From Halomonas sp. A40-4 (GTDB lineage Bacteria > Pseudomonadota > Gammaproteobacteria > Pseudomonadales > Halomonadaceae), in NCBI RefSeq assembly GCF_015767635.1, contig NZ_CP065230.1, forward strand, positions 1,922,001 through 1,986,000: 64,000 nt of DNA, written 5' to 3'. Position 1 is the first letter of the stretch. Every line of letters starts with the position of its first letter. Below are positions 4,839 to 54,262 of the stretch, piece by piece. The position numbers were made by a program, and so were the translations under genes. A model generated the notes under the pieces. The model worked only from the letters and a program-made list of their open reading frames with translations. It ran no database searches and was not told the DNA's origin.

Positions 4839-5878
<1,040 letters not shown>

Positions 5879-15458: not shown

Positions 15459-16505
15459 CTACTCAAGGCTATCTTTATCTTCGCGCTCACTCTCCTGATC
15501 ACGCGACAGTGATGTCGGCAGGTCGGTTAACTGTCGCTGCATGGCGTCCATTCTTGACCAAAGCTGCTCCTGCCAGGCCTTTTCGCGAGCGTCATGCTGC
15601 CGCGCTTCTTCGGCTAATGCCGATTCTGCATCGTCGAGTTTCTTGATCGCCTCTTGGTAGCGTTGCTCCAGCGCATTCAGCGCTGCCTGAAGCTGCTGTT
15701 GAGCTTGCTGCTCGGCATGCGCCTCCAACTGATACTGATAGATTGATTTTTCCAGCGTTTTAACCTCTTGGGCCAGTTTCTCGTTGCGTTTATCAGCCTG
15801 TTTCAGCCGCTGCTGGTAGGCGCTTTCTTCCTGTGCCCGCTCCTGTCGGGCGCTGTCCAGCAAGCTCATTAGGCGATCTTCGGCGGCTTCATGGCGCTGC
15901 TCTTCCTGAGTCAGGCGCGCCTGCCATTCGGCTTGCTGTTGGCTGAGCTGATCGGCATGTTGCGCCTGATGCTCACCCAACTGTTGCTGGGCTCGCTCAT
16001 AGGCGGACTGCCACTTGGCCACCTCTTCACGTGCCTCTCTTGCTTGAGTCCGCCACTGGGCTTCATCGGCTTGGCTGGCCGCCAGGTCTCGACTAAGCCC
16101 CTCGACGCGCGTTTCTGTATGACGCAGATGTTCCGCCAGGGCGCTTTCACGCTGCTCCGCATTGGCGGCCCGCTGGTCGGCGTCGTTGGCTTCAAGCTTT
16201 GCAGTCTCAACCTGGCGGTCGGCTTCTTCACGGTAATGGCATAACGCATCGTGCGCCGCCTCCCTGGCTTCCTTCCATAGTTCACTGGCAACGCTGACCA
16301 CTGCCTCAGGCAACCCTTTGGGCGGTGGTACGTCACGGTTGTGCTCACGCTCAAGACGCCACTGGCGGAAATGTTCACTGATGGTGGTGAAGCTACCCGT
16401 ACCGAGCACTTCACGAATGCGCTGCACGCTGGGCGTATCGCCTCGGCTGAGCAACGTATCGATGGCCTGCTGTACATCTTGATATTGAACGCCGCTGCGT
16501 GCCAT
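15459..16505 (-). CDS. KfrA-like DNA-binding protein with long coiled coil
   Basis: A 348-residue protein. Residues 1-60 (VQQAIDTLLSRGDTPSVQRIREVLGTG then FTTISEHFRQWR) match the KfrA_N helix-turn-helix domain known from plasmid KfrA proteins, which bind their own promoter and form filaments. The rest, roughly 75-330, is almost uninterrupted charged heptad repeat rich in Q, E, A and R, hence coiled coil, ending in an acidic tail. The start has AAGGAG seven bases upstream. It is divergent from a tyrosine recombinase, and the shared region carries a promoter for this gene plus two symmetric sites. Autoregulation or DNA organisation is the likely role, by analogy with KfrA; whether it acts with the recombinase is unknown. 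Confidence 0.8.
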   Translation of the reverse strand: MARSGVQYQDVQQAIDTLLSRGDTPSVQRIREVLGTGSFTTISEHFRQWRLEREHNRDVPPPKGLPEAVVSVASELWKEAREAAHDALCHYREEADRQVETAKLEANDADQRAANAEQRESALAEHLRHTETRVEGLSRDLAASQADEAQWRTQAREAREEVAKWQSAYERAQQQLGEHQAQHADQLSQQQAEWQARLTQEEQRHEAAEDRLMSLLDSARQERAQEESAYQQRLKQADKRNEKLAQEVKTLEKSIYQYQLEAHAEQQAQQQLQAALNALEQRYQEAIKKLDDAESALAEEARQHDAREKAWQEQLWSRMDAMQRQLTDLPTSLSRDQESEREDKDSLE

Positions 16506-16537
16506 TTGCGAGCTCCTTATTGGGGTTAGTGGCCGTC

Positions 16538-16566
16538 ATTATCCCGCCCCGGGTCATACAAGGCAA
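16538..16566 (-). promoter_or_regulatory. Putative sigma-70 promoter of the KfrA-like gene
   Basis: On the minus strand a -35 TTGCCT (16561-16566) and a -10 GATAAT (16538-16543) are 17 bases apart. A start near 16531 would give a leader of about 25 bases. A 14-base palindrome abuts the -35 element. Confidence 0.6.
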
Positions 16567-16579
16567 TATTACGTAATAT
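16566..16579. repeat. 14-bp perfect palindrome next to the KfrA-like promoter
   Basis: ATATTACGTAATAT reads identically on both strands and shares one base with the predicted -35 hexamer. Its placement fits an operator for the KfrA-like protein or another dimeric regulator. Confidence 0.5.
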
Positions 16580-16611
16580 GTAAAGTGTAATTTATTTATT
16601 TTAAATGGGTA

Positions 16612-16643
16612 AAATTCAAGATTACCCGTATAATCTTGAATTT
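16612..16643. repeat. Inverted repeat with 13-bp arms and 6-bp spacer
   Basis: AAATTCAAGATTA (16612-16624) and TAATCTTGAATTT (16631-16643) are perfect inverse copies around the spacer CCCGTA. The inner 11-6-11 geometry equals that of Xer/dif-type core sites, and the recombinase gene starts 97 bases to the right. The plus strand also carries TATAAT at 16629-16634, across spacer and right arm, so an operator over the recombinase promoter is the alternative reading. Confidence 0.6.
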
Positions 16644-16740
16644 ATAAGGTATAAAAGGCAGACTTGGCGCACCCGTTAGCAACTGGGCCGAATAAGAAGG
16701 GAAGAGGGACGATTAGGGTGAGAGAGGAGCAGGGTCGCCA

Positions 16741-17898
16741 ATGGAAACGCGAGATAATACAGCTATCGCCAACCCGATATCGCCGCTGGAAAACCTCAGC
16801 GGTTCGCCGGTTTTGCCACACATTACCGCCAACACGGATGTGGAAGCGGTGGCGGCGTGGCTCGCCGAGTACCAGGACAGCCCGCAAACCTGGAAGTGCT
16901 ATCGTCGGGAAGCCGAGCGCTTGCTGCTGTGGCTCAAGGCCCAGAATTTGACGCTTGGCCAGGTAAACCGTGACGTGCTGCGTCACTTCGAGAACTTCCT
17001 GGCCGATCCGCAGCCAAGCGCGCAGTGGGCGGGGCCTACCAAGCCCCGTCATCACCCGCAATGGCGCCCGTTTCGAGGTGGTCTTTCCCCGGCCAGTCGC
17101 CGGCAAAGCCTGATCATTCTGCAGGGGTTATTCAGTTGGCTGGTAGAAGCAGGCTGGGTGCGCCATAACCCATTTCGCCTGATGCGCGATAAATCGCGTC
17201 GCTTGAACAACCAGTCGCCGCGGATTGAGCGCTATCTGGAGCGCGAGCTATGGGGGTGGCTCTGGCAGTGGCTTAACCAGCCAGCGGGGAAGGGCGAACG
17301 CGACCGTTACGAAATGGCCAGGCGACGTTTTATCTTTGGTTTTGCGTACCTGCTGGCTCCCCGCGTGAGTGAAATGGCCGATGCCCGTATGGGCGATTTT
17401 CATCAAAGCGAGGGCCGTTGGTGGTGGTCCGTCGTTGGCAAGGGCAATAAGGTCGCCCATATTCCGCTACCCGCTGACATGCTGGAATGCCTGGCTGAAT
17501 GGCGACAAACCCTGGGACTCGCTACCACGCCACCCCATCACGACGATACGCCGGTACTTCGCGCTTTGGACAAGAAGCGGGGGATTGGTCATAACCAGCT
17601 CTACCGTCTGATACGTGAGACTTTCAACGAAGCGGCCAACGCGCTGGAAGCGGCTGAAGGAAGCCCTGCTAATATCGCGGCGTTGCGTCGCGCAACCCCC
17701 CACTGGTTGCGCCATACGTCCATTACCCATCAAGCCCAGGCAGGCATCAGCCTGCGGCATCTGGCCGACAGTGCTCGCCACTCGCGCCTGGATACCACGG
17801 CGCGCTATCTGCACAATGAGGCTATCGAGTGGCACCAGCAACAGCAGCGCCATCAGATTGAGCCGAGAGTCACCCAAGACGACGCTGAGACGTTATAA
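16741..17898 (+). CDS. Tyrosine site-specific recombinase (phage-integrase family)
   Basis: A 385-residue recombinase with an N-terminal SAM-like core-binding domain (about 35-150) and a C-terminal catalytic domain. All catalytic positions are visible: R208 in APRVSE, lysine in the GKGNK turn (235-237), H321 and R324 in HWLRHT, H347 in ARHSRL, and the nucleophile Y356 in TTARYLH. It is longer than XerC/XerD (about 300) because of an N-terminal extension and an insert near residues 95-115, so it is probably not the housekeeping Xer protein. The start follows GAGAGGAG. No phage genes, excisionase or tRNA attachment site surround it, and base composition looks like that of its neighbours, suggesting a resident gene rather than a recent island. 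Confidence 0.85.
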   Translation: METRDNTAIANPISPLENLSGSPVLPHITANTDVEAVAAWLAEYQDSPQTWKCYRREAERLLLWLKAQNLTLGQVNRDVLRHFENFLADPQPSAQWAGPTKPRHHPQWRPFRGGLSPASRRQSLIILQGLFSWLVEAGWVRHNPFRLMRDKSRRLNNQSPRIERYLERELWGWLWQWLNQPAGKGERDRYEMARRRFIFGFAYLLAPRVSEMADARMGDFHQSEGRWWWSVVGKGNKVAHIPLPADMLECLAEWRQTLGLATTPPHHDDTPVLRALDKKRGIGHNQLYRLIRETFNEAANALEAAEGSPANIAALRRATPHWLRHTSITHQAQAGISLRHLADSARHSRLDTTARYLHNEAIEWHQQQQRHQIEPRVTQDDAETL

Positions 17899-20637: not shown

Positions 20638-22157
20638 GAGGGTTTGTCTTCCTCGGTAATGGGCTTGAAGCGCCTCAGTTCCAGCAGGCGGTAACCGGTG
20701 TAATTACCGAGCAAAAGAATCAGCGCCATCAAGATAAACTGAACCCCCAGGAAGTTGAAGGTGATGTGTCGCACCCACGGATTGTTCATGGCCAGGAACG
20801 CAATGACGGCTGTCAGCAAGCTCCCGCCGCCCTGTATCAGGACCTGCTTGGGACCTTCTTCTTCCCACAGAATCGACATCCGCTCGATCGTCCAGGCCAG
20901 AATGATCATCGGGAAAAAGGTAATGGTGAGTCCGGCGTTCAAGCCCATCCGGTACGCCAGCACCGAGAACACCGAGATGATGGCAATGACGGTGATGATC
21001 ACCGCCGAGACCCTGGCAACCAACAATAAATTCAAGTAAGACAAGTAATTGCGGATTATCAGGCCTACCGATACGACCAGCAGAAAACCAATTAATCCGG
21101 TTGCCAGACTGGTCTGGATGAAGGCGAGGGCAATCAGTACAGGCATGAAGGTGCCCGAGGTTTTGATGCCTACCAGTACGCGCAGGAAGACGACGACCAG
21201 CGCCCCAATCGGGATAAGCAAGATGGTTTGGAATAGGGCCTGTTCTTCCAGCGGGAGGCTGTGAATCGAGAAATTCAGCAGCGTATCGTTGGAGTTGTGG
21301 TTACGTACCGCCGCGGATGCGGGCTGATAGTGGGTCATCATCGAGAAGCTGACCCGGGAATTGGTCCCGCCTTGTACCTCAAGTACAGCGTCACCGGTCG
21401 TTTCCCATAGCAGCAGGTTGTCAGGCTTGCCTTGGACACCGGTAATGGGATGAAAAAGCGACCATGTTTCATCGTTTTCATCGAAGACCTGAATCCAGGT
21501 GCTCAGCGTTTGTCGGCGACGGCCATCGTCAAGTAGCAAGCCGCTAACCCCTCGAGCTTTCACACCTGCCTGGTTAAGCAGGCGAACAACCAGTGGGGCA
21601 GGGTCCATCTCGCCAAGCAGAAGGCGAGCATTTTCATCCTGGCGTTCTCCGTTTGTATCGCGAATCAACTCCCGGGCAAAGGTGGCGTTATTGGCACTTC
21701 GCTCCCAGGCTTCCTCGATAAGCTGCTCAGCAGCTGAGTCGTAAGGACTTTCCCATTCGACGGCAGGAGGAAGCTCAGGTGCAGCCTGCACCGGCGCTTG
21801 CGCCTCGGGCGATACCAGCATTTGAACGGAATAATACAGCTGCTGTTCACCATCAGCCTCGCGAATCGTCCACTCCGCACGCCGACCTGCTTCATCTGCC
21901 TGGTAAGCCAGCCCATAACCGGAAGACGCTGTGTTCTCGGTGAGTATGCGGTATCCGGCCTGCTGGGTCGGCAGTGCAAGATCAACCTCTACAGGCCCAC
22001 CCTGAGCATCAAAGGTAATGACGGCCTCGATTTCCCATACCTGGCGCTGCTCACCTGGCACCCAGGGTATTTCAAACTGCAGGTGACGATGTACACTCAT
22101 CGCAATGCCGGCTGCGAGCAATAAACCGACAATAAAATAAAAGGGTAGCCGTGACAT
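20634..22157 (-). CDS. Inactive transglutaminase-like protein with C-terminal 7TM domain
   Basis: A 507-residue protein: one N-terminal helix (residues 4-20), a periplasmic region of about 300 residues including a transglutaminase-like fold (LLNQAGVKARGVSG onward), and a C-terminal block of about seven helices from roughly residue 305. In place of the catalytic Cys-His-Asp triad I read no suitable cysteine, and LSTWIQVFDENDETWSLFHP where active enzymes carry H and D, so it is the inactive type. The preferred start at 22157 has AAAGGA seven bases upstream. It lies between the retropepsin-like lipoprotein gene and the RimK-like gene, a combination conserved across gammaproteobacteria. Confidence 0.85.
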   Translation of the reverse strand: MSRLPFYFIVGLLLAAGIAMSVHRHLQFEIPWVPGEQRQVWEIEAVITFDAQGGPVEVDLALPTQQAGYRILTENTASSGYGLAYQADEAGRRAEWTIREADGEQQLYYSVQMLVSPEAQAPVQAAPELPPAVEWESPYDSAAEQLIEEAWERSANNATFARELIRDTNGERQDENARLLLGEMDPAPLVVRLLNQAGVKARGVSGLLLDDGRRRQTLSTWIQVFDENDETWSLFHPITGVQGKPDNLLLWETTGDAVLEVQGGTNSRVSFSMMTHYQPASAAVRNHNSNDTLLNFSIHSLPLEEQALFQTILLIPIGALVVVFLRVLVGIKTSGTFMPVLIALAFIQTSLATGLIGFLLVVSVGLIIRNYLSYLNLLLVARVSAVIITVIAIISVFSVLAYRMGLNAGLTITFFPMIILAWTIERMSILWEEEGPKQVLIQGGGSLLTAVIAFLAMNNPWVRHITFNFLGVQFILMALILLLGNYTGYRLLELRRFKPITEEDKPS

Positions 22158-22193: not shown

Positions 22194-23033
22194 TTATTCT
22201 TCACTATCGTCCGAGTCGGCCGCTTCGTCCTCAGCCGCTTCGTCGGCGGGCTCACCACCTGGGAATTCAGGTCGATCGAAGCGATAAGTTTCAGCCACAT
22301 CAATAAGGGCAATATCGAGTAAAAAACGACGACCAAGCAGAACAGGGTAGTCCAGGTGACTGCGGTTACTAAGGGTGAACTCCACATTTTCGCTAAGCGG
22401 ACCCAGGGTTAGCAGCAGGGAAATCACCAGACGCGATTCTTCTCCGGAGGCCTGTACGATACGGACGCGACGCTCGATAGGCGCTTCAATCCACTCATCG
22501 CGGATACTTTCAACCACGACATCTTCTTCATTAAGCGCCAACTTGAAGCGTACCCAGTCTTCACCGTCACGTTCAAAGGGCGTGATGTCACGGGCAGATA
22601 GCGATGATGTATTGGCGCCTGAGTCCACTTGGGCCTGGAGATAGGTACCGATACTCGGCAATCCCACCCATTCATTGCGGCCAAGCAGCGTTTTATTTTC
22701 AAGCAGGTCGTTTTCAACGTTGCATTCTTCACGAACCACGATGGATTCTTGGTTGTGCGCATCCAGTTGCTGCACGTCGTTACGTAGGCGACGAAGCAGG
22801 CTGCCAACTTCACGCACATCGGCGGTGAAGACTTCCTGCTGGTCAAGCTGGCGTTGCTGCAAGGAAGCGGTCTCGCTGCACTGCTGGGACAACTGGGTCT
22901 GTAACCTATCCATGCGCATGTTGAATGCTGCTTCATCAAGAGGCGGAGGGCCTTCGGGAGCAGGCTTCGGCAATGCACAGCCAGACACCAAAACAGCCGA
23001 ACCTACTATCAACCAAACAACACCTTTACGCAT
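22194..23033 (-). CDS. Retropepsin-like (RimB-type) aspartic protease lipoprotein
   Basis: A 279-residue predicted lipoprotein. The N terminus MRKGVVWLIVG is followed by the lipobox VSGC near residue 18. After a proline-rich linker and a coiled coil of about 80 residues comes the RimB/ATP-dependent zinc protease homology domain: GLPSIGTYLQAQVDSGANTSSL, whose DSGA is a single aspartic-protease half-site, and DYPVLLGRRFL. A highly acidic tail ends it. Such half-site enzymes act as dimers. The older name zinc protease is probably misleading. I took ATG 23033 rather than upstream starts because it begins the signal peptide. It is first in the three-gene cluster and starts 99 bases from the dif-like site. 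Confidence 0.82.
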   Translation of the reverse strand: MRKGVVWLIVGSAVLVSGCALPKPAPEGPPPLDEAAFNMRMDRLQTQLSQQCSETASLQQRQLDQQEVFTADVREVGSLLRRLRNDVQQLDAHNQESIVVREECNVENDLLENKTLLGRNEWVGLPSIGTYLQAQVDSGANTSSLSARDITPFERDGEDWVRFKLALNEEDVVVESIRDEWIEAPIERRVRIVQASGEESRLVISLLLTLGPLSENVEFTLSNRSHLDYPVLLGRRFLLDIALIDVAETYRFDRPEFPGGEPADEAAEDEAADSDDSEE

Positions 23034-23131
23034 AACATGGACATCCGTGATCAATAAGAAGATGAATGATAAGGAGTAGTGAGACCGGTTGTCCAACAAC
23101 CGCGTGGTGTTATTTACCGGCAATCCATTCA

Positions 23132-23159
23132 ATTTAACATAATATATATTATGCGAACC
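23132..23159 (-). other. dif: Chromosome dimer resolution site dif (XerCD target)
   Basis: The 28 bases match the reverse complement of E. coli dif (recalled sequence) at 26 of 28 positions. Along the plus strand: XerD-type arm ATTTAACATAA (23132-23142), central region TATATA (23143-23148), XerC-type arm TTATGCGAACC (23149-23159). The differences are one base in the centre and one in the outer XerC arm. It is intergenic, between the divergent retropepsin-like and DUF3833 genes. XerC and XerD with FtsK would resolve chromosome dimers here, so the replication terminus should be close. Confidence 0.9.
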
Positions 23160-23246
23160 GAAAGGATAGATTGGCTTTAGCCACAATTCCTGCGATAGTC
23201 TTGACAGTAATTATACATGCCACGTTGTCTATATAGGAAAAACGCG

Positions 23247-28739: not shown

Positions 28740-29378
28740 TTATCCGATAGGGCAGCTGACACCCGTACCCTTGATGCCACAATAGCCATTGGGGTTTTTG
28801 TATAGATATTGCTGATGATACGCCTCAGCATAATAAAAAACGTCCAATGGCTTGATTTCAGTGGTGATATCGCCTTTTCCAGCGGCGTGAAGCGCCTCCT
28901 GGAATACCTTGGCACTTTCCTCGGCTGCCTGATGCTGCGCCGTTGTCGTCGTGTAAATCGCTGAGCGATACTGAGAGCCAACATCATTACCCTGGCGGTT
29001 TTTCTGGGTAGGGTCGTGCTGCTCCCAGAAAACATTCAGCAATGTTGCCAGTGAGACCTGGCTCGGGTCGTAAATAATTCGTACGGCCTCGGTATGGCCG
29101 GTACGCCCCGTGCAGGTTTCTTCATAAGTCGGGTTGGGTGTTTGCCCCCCGGCATAACCTGCCGCCGTCACATAGACCCCCGGCAAATCCCAGAAAAGAC
29201 GCTCCACGCCCCAGAAACAGCCCATGCCCACAACCAGTTCCTCAGTCTCTGAAGGAAAAGGCGGGTGCAGAGGGTGGCCGTTAACGGCATGGTGATCACT
29301 GGTCGCAATGGGTGTCTCGCGACCCGGCAGAGCGAGCTCCGCCTGGCGAGTGGCATTATGGGTGTCAAATATAGACAT
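28740..29378 (-). CDS. msrA: Peptide methionine sulfoxide reductase MsrA
   Basis: A 212-residue repair enzyme reducing methionine-S-sulfoxide. The catalytic cysteine is C54 in [12 protein letters not shown], followed by the family motifs AGYAGG and the substrate-pocket stretch [11 protein letters not shown]. Resolving cysteines are in [10 protein letters not shown] and SCPIG at the C terminus. The N-terminal 45 residues resemble those of the E. coli-type long MsrA. It begins ten bases after tamB on the same strand and is probably co-transcribed with tamAB, a recurrent neighbourhood in proteobacteria. Confidence 0.96.
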
Positions 29379-53158: not shown

Positions 53159-54262
53159 ATGCCAACTGATGCCTCACACCCGAGCCAGGCGTATGACTTT
53201 GACTGCCTCGTCTTTATTGGCCGTTTTCAGCCCCCTCACCTGGGGCATCTGGCGGTTATTCGTGAAGCACTGAAACAAGCGCGTCAGGTTATCGTGTTGG
53301 TCGGCTCCTCCTGGCAGGCACGCTCGCTGCGGAATCCATGGCGTTTTGAAGAACGGCAGATGATGTTGCGCTCAGGTTTTGACGAGGAGGATAACCAGCG
53401 ACTGGAAATCACACCGTTACTGGATGCGCTTTACAACAACGACGTCTGGGTTCGCGATGTTCAGCGTAAAGTAAGGGACTTGACCGCGCCGGCAAATGCC
53501 AGACTGCCACGGATCGGTCTTATAGGGGCTAGCCGGGGACAATCCAGCTACTACCTATCACTATTCCCGCAATGGGAGTCGGTGAGTGTCCCGTTGGTCG
53601 AAGGTATTTCAGCAAGCCAGATCCGTGAACGTCTGTTTCGCTCGCCTGGGTCCACCGACGACTACCTCAGTACAGGTGCCTACCACGACCTACCCCCTGG
53701 CGTGGTTGATCGTGTGGCGCTTTTTTGCCGGGGAAGCGACTACGAACAACTGCTGGAGGAGCAGCAACTGCTGGACCAGTATCGTAAAGCCTGGCAACAA
53801 GCGCCCTACCCTCCCATTTTTGTTACCGTCAATGCCGTGGTGGTCCAGTCAGGCCATGTGCTACTGGTACGCCGTACTGCAGCACCGGGTAAGGGGCTGT
53901 TCGCATTACCAGGTGGCTTTATCAATCCCCATGAACGATTGCTTGACGCCTGCCTGCGGGAATTGCGTGAGCGTATCCGTCTGAAAGTACCTGAGCCGGT
54001 TTTGAAGGGCTCATTGAGAGGCCAGCGCCTGTTTGATGAACCTCACCGCAGTTGGCGTGGCCGAACGCTGGCTGAAGCCTTCTACTTTGCCTTGCGCCCC
54101 GACCAGCAGTTGCCGCAATTGAAACCCGTCAAGGGCGGTGACCATGCCCGCTGGGTCGCCCTTGCCGACCTTCAGCCCGATAGCCTGTTTGAAGACCATT
54201 TTTTTATCATTCAAAATTTTCTTGGCCTGCCTGCCGACTTTACGAGCGAGTCAGCGCACTAA
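53159..54262 (+). CDS. Bifunctional NMN adenylyltransferase/Nudix hydrolase
   Basis: A 367-residue two-domain protein like cyanobacterial and Francisella NadM-Nudix. The N-terminal adenylyltransferase domain (about 15-185) shows VFIGRFQPPHLGHLAVI and VEGISASQIRERLF, the two nucleotide-binding motifs; it forms NAD from NMN and ATP. The C-terminal Nudix domain (about 205-355) shows FALPGGFINPHERLLDACLRELRERIRL, a box that departs from the consensus REUxEExGU at two places. Start at ATG 53159 with AAAGGA nine bases before; TTG 53135 lacks this. Salvage use in NAD synthesis is inference. Confidence 0.88.
   Translation: MPTDASHPSQAYDFDCLVFIGRFQPPHLGHLAVIREALKQARQVIVLVGSSWQARSLRNPWRFEERQMMLRSGFDEEDNQRLEITPLLDALYNNDVWVRDVQRKVRDLTAPANARLPRIGLIGASRGQSSYYLSLFPQWESVSVPLVEGISASQIRERLFRSPGSTDDYLSTGAYHDLPPGVVDRVALFCRGSDYEQLLEEQQLLDQYRKAWQQAPYPPIFVTVNAVVVQSGHVLLVRRTAAPGKGLFALPGGFINPHERLLDACLRELRERIRLKVPEPVLKGSLRGQRLFDEPHRSWRGRTLAEAFYFALRPDQQLPQLKPVKGGDHARWVALADLQPDSLFEDHFFIIQNFLGLPADFTSESAH

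Follow-up and report, generated by a model that had tools for sequence, protein, structure and literature searches.

Among the recombination systems in print, the closest to the locus described here is XerL/dif of the Legionellales (PMC9765430, available to us in part), with which it is likened by description. Both have a single tyrosine recombinase outside XerC and XerD, a site whose inverted arms run without interruption (10 and 12 bp in the Legionellales, 11 bp in Halomonas), a catalytic tyrosine far into the protein (Y387/Y389 in XerL, Y356 of 385 residues here) and a link to plasmids, which the available text gives for one genus of the Legionellales. The differences are of location and company. 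In L. pneumophila, xerL and dif are >400 kb apart and XerCD is lacking, whereas in Halomonas the gene and the site are adjacent and an XerCD-dif system is found 6.5 kb away. Halomonas also has a KfrA_N partner, while the word kfrA is absent from the available text of PMC9765430. The XerL ortholog search in that paper used a Legionellales database. XerS/difSL and XerH/difH, also compared by description (PMC2731167 and PMC9765430, both available in part), resemble the Halomonas locus in that the recombinase gene adjoins a dif-like site near the terminus. However, they replace XerCD, while Halomonas keeps XerCD too, and their sites are only partially dyad-symmetric (PMC9765430). For proteobacteria that lack dif/Xer, Carnoy and Roten did not settle what resolves dimers (PMC2731167, in the part available). 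Neither a terminus recombinase in Halomonadaceae nor a KfrA-linked chromosomal resolver was recognised in the literature searched, which included few subscription papers and preprints.

The window, that is, the whole stretch of 64,000 nucleotides that was analysed, comes from Halomonas sp. A40-4 (NZ_CP065230.1, positions 1,922,001 to 1,986,000), whose genome is one contig of 4,150,502 bases (4.15-Mb chromosome). The features of the dif locus, with arms named by analogy with E. coli, are as follows.

22194..23033, minus strand: retropepsin-like gene (Zn_protease PF05618 / RloA-RimB-like; below the NCBIfam cut-offs), left neighbour of dif
23132..23159, minus strand: dif, 28 bp, match to E. coli dif, single copy
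23132-23142, minus strand: XerD arm of dif, TTATGTTAAAT
23143-23148, minus strand: centre of dif, TATATA
23149-23159, minus strand: XerC arm of dif, GGTTCGCATAA
23217..23795, plus strand: DUF3833 gene, right neighbour of dif

The minus-strand reading of 23132-23159 is GGTTCGCATAATATATATTATGTTAAAT and dif of E. coli MG1655 is GGTGCGCATAATGTATATTATGTTAAAT. The two agree at 26 of 28 positions and the two mismatches are at position 4, in the XerC arm, and at position 13, in the centre, which reads TATATA here and TGTATA in E. coli; the 11-6-11 plan and the conserved XerD arm are both present. A TATATA centre of dif has already been published for Hahella chejuensis (PMC2731167, in the part available). 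The sequence-only reading had claimed 26/28 identity to E. coli dif with a 6-bp centre and a place in an intergenic gap between divergent genes. The MG1655 comparison confirmed the former, and dif indeed sits in a non-coding gap at 23034-23216 between the retropepsin-like gene (minus) and the DUF3833 gene (plus). A TTG-start frame (start 23186) overlaps dif, and the whole Pfam match is held by the frame from the ATG at 23033. Dinucleotide shuffling of the window, repeated 100 times, never produced a match to the dif pattern (≤3 mismatches). A whole-genome scan at the same threshold gave one copy in 4.15 Mb, at 1,945,132-1,945,159, as expected of a site unique to each genome.

The cumulative GC skew reached its maximum at 1,929,568 (1.745-2.145 Mb examined), 15.6 kb from dif and 9 kb from the second site described below, which is thus the nearer of the two; skew maxima are broad and do not discriminate between these two places. 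In 20 sampled stretches of 20 kb, skew was positive in 10/10 left of dif and negative in 9/10 right of it, the sole exception being the last 20 kb before dnaA (bases 74-1606 of the chromosome). Within 200 kb, 41 of 44 KOPS (GGGNAGGG) point to dif. Two of the remaining three lie 6 and 11 kb to the right of dif, at window positions 29006 and 34408, and face away from it; the next opposing KOPS is at 53811. KOPS of the far samples face dif in 25/30 cases on the left arm and 13/22 on the right arm (13 toward, 9 away). The matS consensus was not found in the 400 kb round dif. XerC, XerD and FtsK with its gamma domain are all encoded in the genome; XerC scores 327.4 bits, just below the curated cut-off of 335.15, and its gene stands in the order lysA-dapF-DUF484-xerC.

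The skew peak and the convergence of KOPS upheld the further claims of the sequence-only reading, namely that GC skew changes sign near the site and that the site is close to the replication terminus. Identity, uniqueness, skew, KOPS and the XerC, XerD and FtsK-gamma genes agree, and on these grounds 23132-23159 is almost certainly the dif of the chromosome, as had been proposed. It shares with E. coli dif/XerCD-FtsK 26/28 bases, single copy, a location near the skew switch, converging KOPS and the presence of XerC, XerD and FtsK-gamma in the genome, and is unlike it in the centre. An AT-rich palindrome between divergent genes could be a promoter or terminator element resembling dif by chance. 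This is extremely improbable, given the single genome copy, the KOPS that converge on the site and an XerD arm that is intact in all 80 genus genomes with a dif match. Judging from homology and anatomy, XerC would bind the right-hand arm and XerD the left-hand arm in the orientation of the window, and FtsK, guided by KOPS, would activate XerD at dif, so that chromosome dimers would be resolved. By itself, this dif is ordinary.

A dif match (≤2 mismatches) was found in 259 of 275 family genomes, and 54 of the 59 dif loci read in the family have a homolog of the retropepsin-like gene ≤1.5 kb away, with its orientation relative to dif preserved (5 without it); the expectation that dif is kept at this locus in related Halomonadaceae therefore held. 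In the genus, 80 of 82 genomes have a match, 77/80 with the centre TATATA and 80/80 with the XerD arm kept. Among 27 genomes of the genus (g1) with dif and dnaA on one contig, the two were on the same strand in 16 and on opposite strands in 11; a fixed handedness of dif relative to dnaA was therefore rejected. This mixed orientation, although the neighbours are mostly kept, suggests repeated inversions round the terminus in g1. Second matches to the dif arms, with other centres, were seen on further contigs of three genomes (G131 C6:43726, G103 C22:18862, G056 C2:71934) and could be plasmid dif or mobile-element sites.

A second module, which the sequence-only reading of dif does not mention, is located at 15459-17898, with its 28-bp site 6.5 kb from dif. 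Its features and the two KOPS between this site and dif are given below.

15459..16505, minus strand: KfrA_N-type DNA-binding gene (PF11740, E 1.1e-25), divergent from the recombinase gene
16569..16597, no strand assigned: TTACGTA-type repeats between the KfrA_N gene and the 28-bp site (extent by eye), a possible operator
16614..16641, plus strand: second dif-like site, ATTCAAGATTA-CCCGTA-TAATCTTGAAT, perfect 11-bp inverted arms and 6-bp centre
16741..17898, plus strand: terminus-linked tyrosine recombinase, 385 aa
17287..17294, plus strand: KOPS GGGNAGGG within the recombinase gene, oriented toward dif
21596..21603, plus strand: KOPS GGGNAGGG in the stretch from the second site to dif, oriented toward dif

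The second site has the 28 bp and the 11-6-11 plan of dif and an arm sequence other than that of dif. In 848 kb of the same genome (12 kb of which were taken in twice), the next best places had at least 4 mismatches at the 22 arm positions. The recombinase scored 64.4 bits against the XerC cut-off of 335.15 and 48.6 bits against the XerD cut-off of 329.6, and was rejected as XerC or XerD as being far under both. Residues R208, K234, H321, R324, H347 and Y356, which we take to be catalytic, are invariant in 17 aligned orthologs. A PDB sequence search with the recombinase gave four weak matches, three named Xer-type recombinases and one RaiA, and an AlphaFold model of it, made with 3 sequences, had a mean pLDDT of 44 and was not taken into a fold search. 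Intact catalytic residues and an adjoining dif-like site are the marks of a single-recombinase Xer/dif module. Such a module is placed at the terminus in the genome under study, in three genomes of genus g14 (G135-G137) and in G608 of another family; the parts read of G404, G491 and G160 did not show a terminus location. The genome under study has XerCD-dif and so falls outside the class of chromosomes in which XerS, XerH or XerL stands without it. By analogy with single-recombinase Xer systems, one recombinase would probably act at both arms of the 28-bp near-palindrome, and strand exchange would take place at the 6-bp centre.

Orthologs of the recombinase were present in 18 of the 22 loci compared. 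sufE adjoins in 18/18, and hisI and a fur-like gene then follow in 17/18. ATP-grasp, 7TM and retropepsin genes follow in most of these loci, except in G121, G129 and G160. In all 16 family genomes with both coordinates listed, the recombinase gene is 3.7-9.7 kb from dif. The 28-bp site was found upstream of the recombinase in all 33 family genomes readable there, with ≤4 mismatches at the 22 arm positions in 32 and 5 in G036, and its centre is more variable than its arms. This count leaves out G104 and G016 for their upstream DNA, G139 for its locus, and G142, G159, G172 and G118, in each of which the single stretch read held no such recombinase. In genus g14, the inner ATAA-N6-TTAT of the second site is identical to that of dif.

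Beyond the family, 390 genomes drawn evenly from the order included 22 with the recombinase at E ≤1e-70. Among those listed it was present in 17 of 18 family genomes (not in G176), and five matches were from other families. Four of the latter (G404, G491, G592 and G608) have the site and a divergent KfrA_N match, one of these below the cut-off; in the fifth (G618, on a contig of 120 kb) the palindrome differs in its arms. In G608 the site, at 2,090,080, is 6.5 kb from the skew maximum (2,083,539), no dif-like site (≤5/24 mismatches) was found in 360 kb, and ten KOPS put the switch only between 2.03 and 2.12 Mb. No sign change of skew was seen in the stretches read of G404 and G491. A more distant second recombinase (28% identity) is encoded near the conserved one by the terminus of G608 (C1:2087585-2088838), and G592 has a similar pair, with the second at 26% identity.

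Relatives of the recombinase were found by tblastn on 1744 and 1762 plasmid records, and ten plasmid loci, chosen among the matches listed, were read. Eight have a divergent KfrA_N gene (seven annotated, and Halioglobus); for the Variovorax and C. taiwanensis loci no divergent DNA-binding gene was present in the annotation read. An 11-6-11 palindrome with ≥9/11 arm matches was found in 7 of the 10 gaps, although two of these seven scores were reached by 9 and 13 of 500 shuffles; the other three gaps had none above chance. Plasmid pairs such as those of Cupriavidus pENH91 and Acidovorax p1-T1 are thus alike in the divergent KfrA_N gene and the 11-6-11 palindrome. They are unlike the Halomonas module in being plasmid-borne and in their arms, except on Halioglobus pRR3-57, which carries the 28-bp site itself. 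Plasmid pIGAnt2 of Halomonas has a weak site (E 0.1; 8/11 in the arms, by eye), which was not counted as evidence. Very probably, a second recombination module, of a kind also carried by plasmids and made up of a KfrA_N protein, a recombinase and a site, stands near dif.

Three viral contigs (L302, L303 and L304) match the second-site pattern exactly, and a tblastn search with 19 of the recombinases found no such recombinase in the DNA read of them. As a lead, such contigs may borrow the recombinase of the host. The site at L304:7253-7280 is 26/28 identical to the second site of the window (compared by eye); L304 is phage-plasmid-like and encodes a Rep3 initiator besides P2-type replication (GPA) and capsid proteins. 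A site of this kind is also present on the P22-like contig L302 (L302:4683-4710), of which 11 kb were read without such a recombinase being found, and the site of L303 is within a longer palindrome and may be something else. A looser pattern, giving 92 viral contigs, was set aside as probably near chance.

Sixteen family genomes had no dif match (≤2 mismatches), of which G076 matched under a laxer pattern, and 12 of the 16 were examined for XerD and FtsK-gamma. Where both recombinases are encoded, XerD scores about 355-367 and XerC 237-250 bits against the XerD model. Nine genomes had nothing above 141 bits, namely six of g14 (G135-G139, G142), two of g16 (G159, G160) and one of g20 (G172). 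G076, G093 and G192 have both XerC and XerD; in G192 a diverged dif occupies the usual place, and a contig of G093 ends near that place. Canonical dif was found in none of the eight g14 genomes and XerCD in none of the six examined. At the dapF locus, no xerC stands behind DUF484 in the 8 readable XerCD-less genomes (of G138, a second dapF copy alone was read), DUF484 being directly followed by the next gene in G159 and G172; in the two dif-bearing genomes compared (G093, G192) xerC is in place. FtsK-gamma is kept in all six g14 genomes, and no match was found in G159, G160 and G172. The FtsK-gamma open frame is 773-812 aa in five g14 genomes and 1034 aa in the genome under study. The single stretches read of G159 and G172 contained no terminus recombinase. 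G160 keeps the module and is missing XerCD and FtsK-gamma; the 92 kb read hold three KOPS without polarity, the one right of the site pointing away, and no clear skew switch was seen at the second site. Near-complete g14 genomes are mostly 2.8-3.1 Mb.

In the genome under study KOPS point past the second site to dif. In 12 dif-bearing genomes (two of them, of Chromohalobacter, with nearly identical loci), 35 of 36 KOPS between the second site and the dif locus point toward dif. In the same interval of four XerCD-less g14 genomes, all 6 point toward the second site; three of the six probably represent a single KOPS within the recombinase gene. The old dif place of g14 was taken by proxy as just upstream of the retropepsin-like gene, and G160, whose old dif locus is missing from the data, was not part of the test. 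Fisher's exact p was 1.3e-6 with KOPS taken as independent. The four genomes form one clade, and therefore the switch counts as one evolutionary event. The recombinase, sufE, hisI, fur-like, ATP-grasp, 7TM and retropepsin genes keep their order and orientation in g14. The GC skew of the interval is negative in G137 and G138 but has not reversed in G135 or G136, where strand composition by itself therefore fails to account for the switch. Control patterns (reversed motif, p 0.21; GGGNGGGA; AGGGNGGG; GAGGNGG) gave no significant switch and few g14 matches. They are weak controls because of these few matches in XerCD-less genomes, 0 to 3 for the three control octamers. GGNAGG, which is short and contained in KOPS, gave a weak switch (p 0.004); the switch was strong with RGNAGGGS, a pattern that overlaps KOPS.

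Larger fields of KOPS gave the same picture in three g14 genomes. In G135 they converge between 146,172 and 148,397, round the site at 147,370 (33/44 toward it); in G136 between 761,549 and 768,693, with the site at 762,462 (45/50); and in G137 between 4,402 and 6,479, with the site at 5,530 (9/10). It is fairly probable that in relatives without XerC, XerD and dif the module took over dimer resolution and KOPS were re-aimed at its site.

The KOPS data also bear on a rival view, in which only dif matters, the recombinase is a domesticated plasmid resolvase that works for plasmids or is idle at the terminus, and the KOPS of g14 reflect drift after loss of dif. That so many relatives of the recombinase are plasmid genes (the 1744 and 1762 records), that KOPS ignore the second site in dif-bearing genomes, and that XerCD-less G160 has the module and no KOPS polarity would all fit it. 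We nevertheless consider it unlikely. Drift would randomise KOPS, yet 6/6 face the second site and the larger fields converge on it in G135, G136 and G137, and across the family the gene and site stay near the terminus with catalytic residues intact.

Less probable still is that the 28-bp palindrome serves the divergent KfrA_N or recombinase promoters as an operator and is not a recombination core. KfrA-type proteins regulate their own genes, which together with the position of the palindrome between two divergent genes and the adjoining TTACGTA repeats speaks for an operator. The 11-6-11 plan is that of dif, however, down to the inner ATAA-N6-TTAT in g14, and its arms are better conserved than its centre. 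Copies of it are carried by phage contigs, where the DNA read showed no recombinase of this kind, and KOPS converge on the palindrome in three XerCD-less genomes. The matches of the recombinase to Pfam Phage_integrase and to PHROGs integrases would suit the integrase of an old prophage or island, with the 28-bp site as its attachment site. This is very doubtful, as the neighbours (sufE, hisI and a gene for methionine synthase) have housekeeping functions and their homologs keep this order in most of the loci compared, and phage records gave 10 matches, all below 60% identity.

Returning to the recombination module, its role may differ between genomes. In E. coli, a site as close to dif as this one is within reach of FtsK at the septum. 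Where dif and the second site coexist, we tentatively suggest that the latter might be a backup resolver or a site borrowed by plasmids or phages. The explanation as a whole, in which dif is accompanied by a second, plasmid-type module that replaced it in XerCD-less relatives, appears likely from the genomes compared.

For the Halomonadaceae, we lean toward a picture in which XerCD-dif and a plasmid-derived module lie about 6.5 kb apart, the module having replaced dif in one genus, with KOPS re-aimed. The module would then be a candidate dimer resolver for one dif/Xer-less genus (g14), in whose relatives the old and the new resolution systems stand side by side. The exchange of a terminus system and the accompanying re-aiming of KOPS thereby become directly testable, and, if true, this family would show how a chromosome swaps its terminus resolution system.
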